DNA from: Moorella sp. E308F
GTDB lineage: Bacteria; Bacillota; DSM-521; Neomoorellales; Neomoorellaceae
Length of the DNA: 64,000 nt
Reading direction: 5' to 3'
Assembly: GCF_006538365.1 (NCBI RefSeq)
Contig: NZ_BJKN01000002.1
Location: 585,119 to 649,118 of the forward strand
Shown: positions 20,401-24,441 of the stretch, in pieces
Layout: the number at the start of each line of letters is the position of its first letter
Position numbering within the stretch: position 1 is the first letter of the stretch
Translations under genes and position numbers: made by a program
The notes under the pieces: model-generated
Seen by the model: only the letters and a program-made list of their open reading frames with translations
Databases searched by the model: none
What the model was told of the DNA's origin: nothing

Positions 20401-20456
20401 TATGCTTGCCATGGTTTTGGCCAACCACCCCCTATCCGGCGTAGGGGTAAAGGTTT

Positions 20457-20597
20457 CCAGGCAACCGGTATCCTGACTCGGGATCACTGCTCCGGCACCG
20501 CCTTCCCAGGTATTACCCAGTGGCTTGATGGTGCCTCGCTCCCCCTCACAGTGGCGGGACCGTGTCAGATTTGCACTGACTTCCCGTATTTGCCTGG
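20457..20597 (-). promoter_or_regulatory. Cobalamin riboswitch aptamer
   Basis: The outer stem is CCAGGCAA (20597-20590) with TTGCCTGG (20464-20457). Inside are the class hallmarks in order: GCCACTG, then GGGAAGGCGG, and the B12-box-like AGTCAGGATACC. The RNA binds adenosylcobalamin or another cobalamin and should shut off cbiJMNQO when B12 is plentiful, through the terminator at 20366-20400. Confidence 0.93.
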
Positions 20598-20703
20598 AAC
20601 ATATTCACTTTAATGTTATTCTAGCATAACCTGGATATGATGTCCAGGGGTTTTAACGTAGCTTGGTAAGTCCTTATTCCTGATGATTTTTTGCCAGGAG
20701 TTG

Positions 20704-22029: not shown

Positions 22030-23030
22030 TTCTTCTCTCCTTCTTTTTCCCGCAGGGCGGCCAGGATTTTCTCCGGTGTAACCGGCAATTCAGTAATGCG
22101 AACTCCCACGGCATTGTAAATAGCATTGATAATGGCCGGTACGGTGGGGATGGTAGCGGGTTCACCAACTCCTTTGGCGCCGTAGGGGCCGGTGGGCTCA
22201 TGGGTTTCCACAATCAGGGGCTGAATCTCGGGTATATCCAGGGCAGTAGGAATGAGATAGGTAGAAAAGGAATTATTAACGATCCGGCCCTGCTGCAGGT
22301 GAACCTTTTCCAGTAGGGCCATACCCAGGCCCTGGGCGACACCGCCTTCAATCTGGCCCTCTACCCCGAGGCGGTTTACGGCCCGGCCCACGTCATGGGC
22401 GGCTATGAGCTTTAAAACCCGCACTTCCCCTGTTTCCGTATCCACTTCCACCTCTGCAATCTGGGTACCGAAGGCGTAAGGCCAGTATGGTGCCCCCTGG
22501 CCGGTCTCCCGGTCAACGGCCGTGGTATGGGTGACGAAGGTTCCCTGCCCCACCAGGCGGTAGCCAGCCAGGCGGGCCCGGGCGGCTGCCTCGGGGTAGG
22601 ATATTTGTTTCTTGGAGTAACCCTTGACGTAAATTATTCCCTCCCTGGCTGCCAGGCCAGCAATGGTATTAACCCCTAAGAGGGTCCGGGTGTATTCAAA
22701 AAGGACTTCCCGGGCCTGGCGGCAGGCCATTTGCACGGCATTGCCGGAGGCATAGGTCTGGCGGGTGGCCGCCGTCGTGCCGGCATCGGGGGTGGTATCG
22801 GTGTCGGCGGTGATTACCGTTATCCATTCATAGGGTACCCCCAGCTCCTCGGCGGCAATTTGCGCCAGGATGGTAGTAGAACCCTGGCCGCAGTCCACAG
22901 CGCCGCTGCGCACGGTGGCCGTACCGTCATCGTGGATTTCTACCGTGGCCGTTGCGACATCGGGAAAACCATTACCGTAGCCGGTACCGTAGAAAAAGCA
23001 GGCCATACCAATACCGCGTTTTTTACTCAT
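22026..23030 (-). CDS. Xanthine-dehydrogenase-type molybdenum enzyme, C-terminal half subunit (NdhM-like)
   Basis: This 334-residue subunit corresponds to the second molybdopterin-binding domain of the xanthine dehydrogenase large chain. It shows VRSGAVDCGQGSTTILAQIAAEE, a QTYASGNAVQ segment, and the C-terminal YGAKGVGEPATIPTVPAI with the glutamate expected as general base. It starts at an ATG preceded by GGGAGGG and overlaps the previous stop (ATGAGTAA). This looks like normal translational coupling rather than a sequencing slip. Together the two pieces make 761 residues, the size of the single-chain homologue. Eubacterium barkeri nicotinate dehydrogenase is split in a similar way. Confidence 0.88.
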   Translation of the reverse strand: MSKKRGIGMACFFYGTGYGNGFPDVATATVEIHDDGTATVRSGAVDCGQGSTTILAQIAAEELGVPYEWITVITADTDTTPDAGTTAATRQTYASGNAVQMACRQAREVLFEYTRTLLGVNTIAGLAAREGIIYVKGYSKKQISYPEAAARARLAGYRLVGQGTFVTHTTAVDRETGQGAPYWPYAFGTQIAEVEVDTETGEVRVLKLIAAHDVGRAVNRLGVEGQIEGGVAQGLGMALLEKVHLQQGRIVNNSFSTYLIPTALDIPEIQPLIVETHEPTGPYGAKGVGEPATIPTVPAIINAIYNAVGVRITELPVTPEKILAALREKEGEKK

Positions 23031-24306
23031 CCTGCATCCCTCCCGGTATTAACTCTGCCAGCGACCAGCCGGCGGCCCGGGCCGCTTGCAGCATAGTCTC
23101 CGTCAGGCCGACGCTGCTTTCCAGGACCTGGCCCGTGGCGGTTACATCCCCCTGCCGGAAGGCATTGAGCCAGCGGATGGTAAAAGGATGGATCCCCAGG
23201 CGGCTGGCCAGCTCGTCCATCTGGCTTTCATAAGCCAGGGGCGGCTGGGTGGCGCCGAACCCGCGCATGGCGCCGGTAAAAGGATTATTGGTATAGACCG
23301 CGTAGGCATCAATCTTAACGTTGGGGATGACATAAGGACCGGTGGCATGGATGGCAGCTTTTCGCAGAACGTTAGGGGCCCAGGAAGAATAGGCGCCGCT
23401 GTCGCCGATGATTTCCGCTTCCAGGGCCGTTAACTTTCCATCCCTGGTGGCACCGGTCTTATAGCGCATGATCATGGGGTGGCGCTTGCTATGGGCCAGG
23501 AAGGATTCTTCCCGGGTAAGGACCATTTTCGCCGGCCGCCGGGTATGCACGGCCAGCAGCGCCACCAGGGTCTGCAGGGTCATATCTTCCCGGCCGCCGA
23601 AGGCACCGCCTACGGCCGGGGCCACGATGCGTATGCGGTCCTGGTTCCAGCCCAGCACCCTGGCTACTTCCACCCGGTCCCAGTGGACATACTGGGTGGC
23701 TACGTAAATTACCAGGTGGCCGCGTTCATCCACCAGGGCCACGGCAGCCTCTGGCTGGAGGAAGGCGTGGTCCAGAAGCTGGGTACGATAGGTATTTTCC
23801 ACAATCACGTCGGCCGCGGCAAACCCCGCTTCGATGTTTCCTTTACGGATGGGCAGGTGGTATATAATATTGTCCCGGTCGGGATGGACCCGAGGCGCCC
23901 CCGGTTGCATGGCCGCCACAGGATCTAAAAGGGCCGGCAGTTCTTCGTAGGTTATCTTTACTTTAGCCGCCCCAGTCCTGGCGGCGTCCGGGGTGGTAGC
24001 ACCTACCAGGGCGACGACGTCATTCACCGAACGCACCTCGTCCCGGGCCAGGACGGGCATGTCCTGGTAGACGACGCCATGGCCGTTATGGCCGGGGATG
24101 TCCCGGGCGGTCAGGACGCAGAGGACCCCCGGGACCTGCAGGGCGTCCGAGGTATCAATATTGACTATCCGGGCATGGGCGTAGGGGCTGCGGACGGCCT
24201 GGCCGTAAATCATCCCCGGAAAATTAAGATCAGCCGGGTAGATGGCCTGGCCGGTGACCTTAGCCCGGGCATCTACCCTGGGCGGGGAAGTACCGACAAC
24301 TGCCAA
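23023..24306 (-). CDS. Xanthine-dehydrogenase-type molybdenum enzyme, N-terminal half subunit (NdhL-like)
   Basis: This 427-residue subunit contains the a/b hammerhead domain (PRVDARAKVTGQAIYPADL, about residues 9-27) and the first molybdopterin domain (EPEAAVAL-like LQPEAAVALVDERGH, GGAFGGREDM, TGAMRGFGATQ). Starts at TTG 24306 after GAGGAG. The enzyme hydroxylates an N-heterocycle such as xanthine or hypoxanthine. The FAD and [2Fe-2S] partner subunits that such enzymes need are not in this window. The leader carries a guanine-class riboswitch, favouring a purine substrate. Confidence 0.9.
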   Translation of the reverse strand: MAVVGTSPPRVDARAKVTGQAIYPADLNFPGMIYGQAVRSPYAHARIVNIDTSDALQVPGVLCVLTARDIPGHNGHGVVYQDMPVLARDEVRSVNDVVALVGATTPDAARTGAAKVKITYEELPALLDPVAAMQPGAPRVHPDRDNIIYHLPIRKGNIEAGFAAADVIVENTYRTQLLDHAFLQPEAAVALVDERGHLVIYVATQYVHWDRVEVARVLGWNQDRIRIVAPAVGGAFGGREDMTLQTLVALLAVHTRRPAKMVLTREESFLAHSKRHPMIMRYKTGATRDGKLTALEAEIIGDSGAYSSWAPNVLRKAAIHATGPYVIPNVKIDAYAVYTNNPFTGAMRGFGATQPPLAYESQMDELASRLGIHPFTIRWLNAFRQGDVTATGQVLESSVGLTETMLQAARAAGWSLAELIPGGMQDE

Positions 24307-24331
24307 TACGAATCACTCCTCGCGTCGGTTA

Positions 24332-24399
24332 TAAAAAATAAGGCAACCGATGCACAGCAACGAAGGATTAACTTCGTAGCCGGGCAATTTGCGGTTGCC
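24332..24399 (-). terminator. Terminator that competes with the guanine aptamer
   Basis: In transcript order GGCAACCG (24399-24392) pairs with CGGTTGCC (24349-24342), followed by TTATTTTTT; an inner ACGAAG/CTTCGT stem extends it. The first arm is also the 5' side of aptamer helix P3 and part of loop L3. The ligand-bound aptamer and the terminator therefore cannot coexist. Confidence 0.75.
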
Positions 24400-24441
24400 T
24401 GGTAGAGACCCTCAGTCCATATTGCTGAGGATATACGAAGT
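24371..24441 (-). promoter_or_regulatory. Guanine-class purine riboswitch aptamer
   Basis: P1 is ACTTCGTA/TACGAAGT. P2 is CCTCAG/CTGAGG with loop CAATATGGA. J2/3 is GTCTCTACC, and P3 carries the loop CCGCAAA. These reproduce the purine aptamer core, including the L2 ATATGG and L3 CCG.AAA kissing loops. The specificity base before TA of P1 is C, as in guanine (not adenine) sensors. Two small departures from the usual core are T at the third J1/2 base and G just before the specificity C. It controls the split Mo hydroxylase and deaminase genes. Confidence 0.9.

Follow-up and report, generated by a model that had tools for sequence, protein, structure and literature searches.

We found that the minus strand of a 64,000-nucleotide stretch of the Moorella sp. 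E308F genome (NZ_BJKN01000002.1, positions 585,119 to 649,118; hereafter the window) carries what is probably a transcriptional riboswitch, in which a class-I guanine aptamer is joined to an ON expression platform for a purine-breakdown operon; judging from the sequences we put the probability of this reading at about 0.85. The leader holds the aptamer and has two mutually exclusive folds, and the pairing contested between them is conserved with compensatory changes across relatives. Transcription would terminate in one of the folds, and binding of a ligand, presumably guanine, would prevent it. The elements of the leader and the genes of the operon are the following, in window coordinates and in the order of transcription.

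24434 to 24441, minus strand: P1 5' strand (ACUUCGUA), from the covariance match and folding
24431 to 24433, minus strand: J1/2 (U22 A23 U24), of which U24 is the last base and lies in the P2 tune box (tune box as in PMC7707468)
24410 to 24430, minus strand: P2-L2-P2' hairpin (CCUCAG ... CUGAGG), with the conserved GG in L2
24402 to 24409, minus strand: J2/3 (GUCUCUAC), with the guanine-pocket bases U47, C50 and U51 and without insertion
24381 to 24401, minus strand: P3-L3-P3' hairpin (CAGGCAA CCGCAAA UUGCCCG)
24392 to 24399, minus strand: the contested segment GGCAACCG, which is the P3 5' strand with the start of L3 and also the terminator 5' arm
24379 to 24380, minus strand: J3/1, with G73 and the specificity base C74
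24371 to 24378, minus strand: P1 3' strand (UACGAAGU), of which ACGAAG (24377-24372) is also in the terminator inner stem
24360 to 24365, minus strand: CUUCGU, the invading strand, predicted by folding to pair with the 3' strand of P1 and thereby start the terminator fold
24342 to 24349, minus strand: terminator 3' arm CGGTTGCC, as RNA the pairing partner CGGUUGCC
24333 to 24341, minus strand: U-tract (UUAUUUUUU), with one interruption
24316 to 24321, minus strand: ribosome-binding site GAGGAG, from the sequence
23023 to 24306, minus strand: N-terminal half of a molybdenum-hydroxylase large subunit, NdhL-like, 427 aa
22026 to 23030, minus strand: C-terminal half of the molybdenum-hydroxylase large subunit, NdhM-like, 334 aa
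20704 to 22029, minus strand: amidohydrolase of the 5'-deoxyadenosine-deaminase type, 441 aa

The Rfam Purine model (RF00167) matches positions 24458-24357 of the minus strand with 82.5 bits (cmscan; E 2.6e-13), well above the gathering score of 37, and the element thereby passes the covariance check that the first-pass annotation had proposed for it; it is the one purine aptamer that cmscan detects on the minus strand of the window. The span given in that annotation, 24332-24441, proved exact, with P1 starting at 24441 and the U-tract occupying 24341-24333, and the bases it had named are all in place, namely C74 at the specificity position, U51, U24 in J1/2 and G73. The aptamer has U22, U47, U51 and C74 together with the L2 GG / L3 CC loop contact of the guanine-I class, and its junctions measure 8 nt (J2-3) and 2 nt (J3-1). 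A promoter scan of the window returned no minus-strand site for the aptamer leader; TATAAT stands directly 5' of P1.

As a first guess from the pocket, guanine is the likely ligand. An earlier suggestion that U24 and G73 might shift the ligand found no support, since every pocket position is of the guanine type, as in the purE leaders with the guanine-PRPP tandem in these genomes, G73 is common elsewhere, and U24 belongs to the P2 tune box, a region that influences the kinetics of binding and the state of the junction without ligand (PMC7707468). Among 31 split-hydroxylase leaders the base at position 73 is G, A or U, and of 40 aptamers outside the catabolic/uptake set, most of them biosynthetic, 19 likewise have G73, so that this position is uninformative on the ligand. 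The alternative that survives best retains the same ON switch and makes xanthine or hypoxanthine its natural ligand, matching the breakdown enzymes. Xanthine or hypoxanthine is the substrate of enzymes of the type encoded in the operon, the discrimination of class-I aptamers against xanthine is no more than about 10-fold (PMC9295807), and a xanthine-specific riboswitch of guanine type has been reported from C. difficile (PMC11477304), but we consider such a ligand unlikely here, as the pocket agrees throughout with that of the purE leaders and the aptamer has neither the U51G change nor the J2-3 and J3-1 insertions of the xanthine-II variant (PMC9295807).

Several aptamers of other kinds were observed in the related genomes. 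Three Desulfosporosinus genomes (L250:3014-3090, minus strand; L252:88-164, plus strand; L263) have a U51G aptamer without the J2-3 insertion (GUUUCGAC), whose terminator arm complements P3 and which precedes the gene for an undivided xanthine-dehydrogenase molybdenum subunit (observed in two of these genomes); these are candidates for a variant that senses xanthine or another ligand and falls outside the published xanthine-II consensus. In two Desulfosporosinus-family genomes (L226:3000-3070, L228:86-156) there are U74, adenine-type aptamers with unusually short P2 and P3, and in a Desulfosporosinus MAG the intact aptamer and terminator are preceded, at a distance of about 350 nt, by a second, degenerate copy (L141:3191-3261, 22 bits), possibly a former tandem.

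Next, we investigated how the leader could terminate transcription. Within the 3.1-kb locus (L001), read on the transcript strand, the terminator arm CGGTTGCC (24349-24342) has a single perfect complement, GGCAACCG (24399-24392), the other match being the arm itself, which bears out the claim of the first-pass annotation that the only complement of this arm is the 5' side of P3 with part of L3. The folding energy of the 108-nt leader is -42.3 kcal/mol, and shuffles give -23.2 ± 3.4 kcal/mol (z -5.6). Upon stepwise folding, the aptamer is the minimum-energy fold up to about 12 nt beyond P1, and at the U-tract the terminator fold beats any fold that keeps the aptamer by 13.7 kcal/mol. In the terminator fold, AGGCAACCG (P3 5' strand and L3) pairs with CGGUUGCCU, which adjoins the U's, and the inner stem is formed by ACGAAG of the P1 3' strand with CUUCGU. 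The advantage of this fold has a median of 15.7 kcal/mol in 31 relatives, compared to 2.4 kcal/mol in the remaining leaders that have a U-tract close by. When scanned for, short-loop terminators were absent beside the aptamer, and an independent terminator of this kind was rejected. Because the sole terminator uses strands of the aptamer's P1 and P3, the bound aptamer and the terminator are mutually exclusive, and with no other terminator near, the bound aptamer should therefore prevent termination. The terminator is strongly favoured at equilibrium, and the switch must therefore act kinetically, beyond what folding energies prove.

We propose that the three-way-junction aptamer would fold first during transcription, and that CUUCGU, once transcribed, would pair with the P1 3' strand and open P1. 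The opened P1 would let CGGUUGCC capture the P3 5' strand and L3, and at the resulting long hairpin followed by U's transcription would stop. A bound guanine-type purine would lock P1 and the junction, strand exchange would stall, and the polymerase would read through into the purine-breakdown operon.

In the window by itself, the match between the arms is only moderately unlikely, as shuffles reach the same level 65 times in 5000 (1.3%), and it is the cross-genome comparison that lifts it above chance. We used three samples, comprising 83 purine aptamers from 61 related genomes, the best 80 loci encoding relatives of the split hydroxylase subunit, for which upstream aptamers were found with aptamer model R1, and 42 further aptamers from the Desulfosporosinus class. 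Among the best 80 split-hydroxylase loci, 25 have an aptamer upstream, and these belong to Moorella, Thermanaeromonas, Desulfosporosinus, Acididesulfobacillus, Paradesulfitobacterium and other Bacillota. Across the 31 split-hydroxylase leaders U22, U47, U51 and C74 are invariant (31/31), and between the P3 5' strand with L3 and the arm preceding the U's the letters vary while the pairing is kept (GGCAACCG/CGGUUGCC, GGUGACCG/CGGUCACC, GGAUAACCG/CGGUUAUCC; further covarying pairs are GGAUGACC/GGUCAUCC, GGUAACCG/CGGUUACU and AAGCAACCU/AGGUUGCUU).

Covariation was counted on the 23 distinct arm pairs of these 31 leaders; in alignment A4 the arm of locus L134 was set by hand beside its U-tract, the automatic choice having fallen at another place. 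Between the P3 5' strand and the terminator arm 92.6% of cells are paired, with seven of ten pairs changed on both sides, and pairing falls to about 40% when the partner is shifted by one base. Both-side changes amount to 42 cells against 16.6 expected, and the score of 0.530 (against 0.296) is reached by none of 500 shuffles, a count that overstates independence because the loci are related by descent. When arms were exchanged between loci, with equal placement freedom for every pairing, the own duplex stood at -16.9 kcal/mol versus -12.8 ± 0.55 kcal/mol for the exchanged ones (0 of 20000 permutations as good), and with one representative per arm class the result was again 0 of 20000. Covariation extends over four or more P3 sequence classes from different lineages, and the P3 complement is weak in 2 of the 31 leaders. 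These results also bear on whether the aptamer is a relic or acts on translation, the downstream hairpin being no working terminator: the U-tract UUAUUUUUU is interrupted once and the ribosome-binding site follows only some 12 nt beyond it, but the hairpin and U-tract are present in 31/31 leaders, their arms covary, and the ribosome-binding site (24321-24316) lies outside both folds, making this reading improbable.

In textbooks, class-I guanine riboswitches turn purine synthesis and uptake OFF. We examined the relation between platform and gene role with a single rule, a P3 complement of -10 kcal/mol or lower directly 5' of the U-tract (P3 rule). Such a complement is found in 29/31 split-hydroxylase leaders, in 9/11 other xdh (FeS) or deaminase leaders and in 8/11 nucleoside-ABC-transporter leaders, and in 0/23 purine-biosynthesis (pur/gua) leaders at the same threshold. 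Similar results were obtained for the Desulfosporosinus-class sample, with 11/11 leaders before xdh FAD-FeS genes against 1/9 purE leaders. The covariation of P3 and terminator arm in the 31 loci, and the lack of this pairing in the biosynthesis leaders, argue for the ON-switch wiring that was first proposed from the window alone. An ordinary guanine OFF switch, whose ligand would stabilise the terminator as in xpt or purE, is the least probable reading: most class-I guanine riboswitches are indeed OFF switches (PMC9295807) and folding programs cannot model kinetics, but here the only terminator consumes the aptamer's P1 and P3, no separate antiterminator or independent terminator was found at the leader, and the arrangement is conserved with compensatory changes.

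NCS2 permease leaders follow the P3 rule in only 2 of 7 cases, and in most of them the terminator pairs with the P3 and P1 3' strands. At L040:6205-6280 and L036:3487-3562 the terminator consists mainly of the P3 and P1 3' strands (CGGCUACGAAG ... CUUCGUAGCCG UUUUUU), and the L040 leader has an extra P3-5' complement with a U-tract further 3'. These permease leaders look ON, and may represent a second route to an ON platform from the same aptamer. In the Moorella purE leader a ykkC-type aptamer, which scores 61.5 bits with the guanidine-I model (cut-off 63), stands 3' of the guanine aptamer; this is the known guanine-PRPP tandem, in which guanine opposes expression (PMC9481103; PMC5912903). 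Several purine-breakdown and uptake operons of Moorella, a thermophilic acetogen, appear to have ON-type switches, with purE keeping the guanine-PRPP tandem, and since both kinds of leader occur together, one genome would use guanine aptamers with both signs.

Upon examining the operon genes, we found that the xanthine-dehydrogenase-type subunits of the first-pass annotation are more exactly a split pair, most similar to nicotinate dehydrogenase L/M. Among solved structures, the halves have 3hrd_A (E 3e-114, L) and 3hrd_B (E 1.5e-89, M) as nearest homologues, and the chains are divided as in NdhL/NdhM (about 425 and 330 aa). A frameshift was rejected as the origin of the split, which is identical in all relatives examined; the NdhL-like gene has a TTG start at 24306, and in relatives ATG stands at the same place. 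Glu240 in the protein of the window is shared by nine relatives without exception and is Leu in nicotinate dehydrogenase 3hrd. We take it to stand where xanthine oxidase has its purine-binding Glu (bovine E802), and a purine is therefore more likely to be the substrate than nicotinate. The third gene had been called a probable guanine deaminase, which is not supported, as it scores 240.6 against a curated cut-off of 375.4; it passes the curated 5'-deoxyadenosine deaminase cut-off (721.7 against 522), and its product appears to be of the 5'-deoxyadenosine-deaminase type and is not clearly a guanine deaminase. An ordinary cobalamin riboswitch (99 bits, 20446-20646, minus strand) stands before an operon for cobalt-precorrin-6A reductase and a cobalt transporter.

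The same genome has a second ON-type guanine leader, at C1:154743, with the following feature.

C1:136500 to 155500 (L266, own genome): purine-degradation cluster under the second ON-type leader

This leader lies ahead of XdhC-XdhA-XdhB (XdhA 1300 against a cut-off of 916), after which come a second FeS subunit, SsnA (706 against 455), a second FAD subunit and a BmpA-type ABC transporter, and onward in the cluster YgfK (1578 against 835), carbamate kinase and serine dehydratase. Genome-wide, Fer2_2 is found in three places, FAD_binding_5 in two and MoCoBD_2 in three, and the second FeS/FAD pair is without a molybdenum subunit beside it; in Desulfosporosinus the FAD, FeS, L and M subunits are in one operon. 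The second FeS/FAD pair may complete the enzyme of the window's L and M halves, in which case two distant ON switches would serve one enzyme.

When comparing the aptamers by gene role, we observe that 52/52 distinct catabolic/uptake aptamers either lack A at base 24 or have a shortened L2, versus 6/34 others. U24 itself occurs in 30/52 versus 4/34 (Fisher p 1.6e-5, kinship ignored) and a shortened L3 in 26/52 versus 2/34 (kinship likewise ignored), and within Moorella the contrast involves only four distinct purE aptamers. Chimeras made in the laboratory ran the pbuE ON platform with the xpt guanine aptamer only after tune-box changes and a weakened L2-L3 contact (PMC7707468). We give an even chance to a wider reading, in which Moorellia and the Desulfosporosinus class have a purine-breakdown regulon of ON-rewired class-I guanine aptamers, where the base-24 change or shortened L2, often with a shortened L3, loosens the unliganded junction for terminator invasion as a natural counterpart of the laboratory tune-box and loop changes, and where the two Moorella switches coordinate the subunits of one two-locus enzyme.

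Among known systems, the closest in platform is the adenine switch pbuE (ydhL) of Bacillus subtilis, which is turned ON by terminator disruption, its invading strand passing P1, J3/1 and P3 unless ligand locks the junction (PMC7707468). The window terminator is likewise made of P1 and P3 strands and is incompatible with the aptamer; unlike pbuE, the window has C74 rather than the adenine-type U74, and it would govern purine breakdown and uptake whereas pbuE is an efflux pump. With guanine-I (RF00167; xpt, purE) it shares the aptamer fold and the ligand-contacting bases, but the predicted control sign is the reverse of that in xpt and purE, the expression platform is another and the tune box and loops differ. 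The guanine-PRPP tandem of purE leaders has the same kind of aptamer in the same genomes, but guanine opposes expression there and no P3-terminator complement is found. Guanine-II of Paenibacillus (Hamal Dhakal 2022) also has a guanine-type pocket and is predicted to be ON, but its one-nucleotide J2-3 insertion and its phosphoribosyltransferase genes are absent here (PMC9295807); besides the insertion, guanine-II shares most of the other changes of xanthine-II, and membership of it was rejected, the window aptamer having no J2-3 insertion. Xanthine-II is similarly predicted to be ON at purine-degradation genes including xanthine dehydrogenase (PMC9295807), and membership was rejected as U51 is kept and the junctions are without insertions. 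NMT1 (xanthine-I) is also tied to purine oxidation genes, but has an unrelated fold and is an OFF switch (PMC7373994).

A 2007 survey listed glycine, adenine and lysine, and not guanine, as ON switches of the terminator type (PMC2258182), and according to a 2020 paper no then-known riboswitch class mainly regulated purine-degradation enzymes (PMC7373994). ON control was already predicted for guanine-II, and for xanthine-II at xanthine dehydrogenase; what appears new here is the class-I guanine aptamer wired ON for purine breakdown, of which we found no description in the open-licence literature. Xanthine-II joined the regulators of purine degradation in 2022, and switches of the window type, if true, would add guanine-I to them. 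The large conserved ON set would mean that one aptamer serves both control signs within a genome, with gene role setting the sign. The purE and xdh leaders of one genome would thus be natural pairs for testing which aptamer features are compatible with an invading terminator, a compatibility so far studied with designed chimeras.
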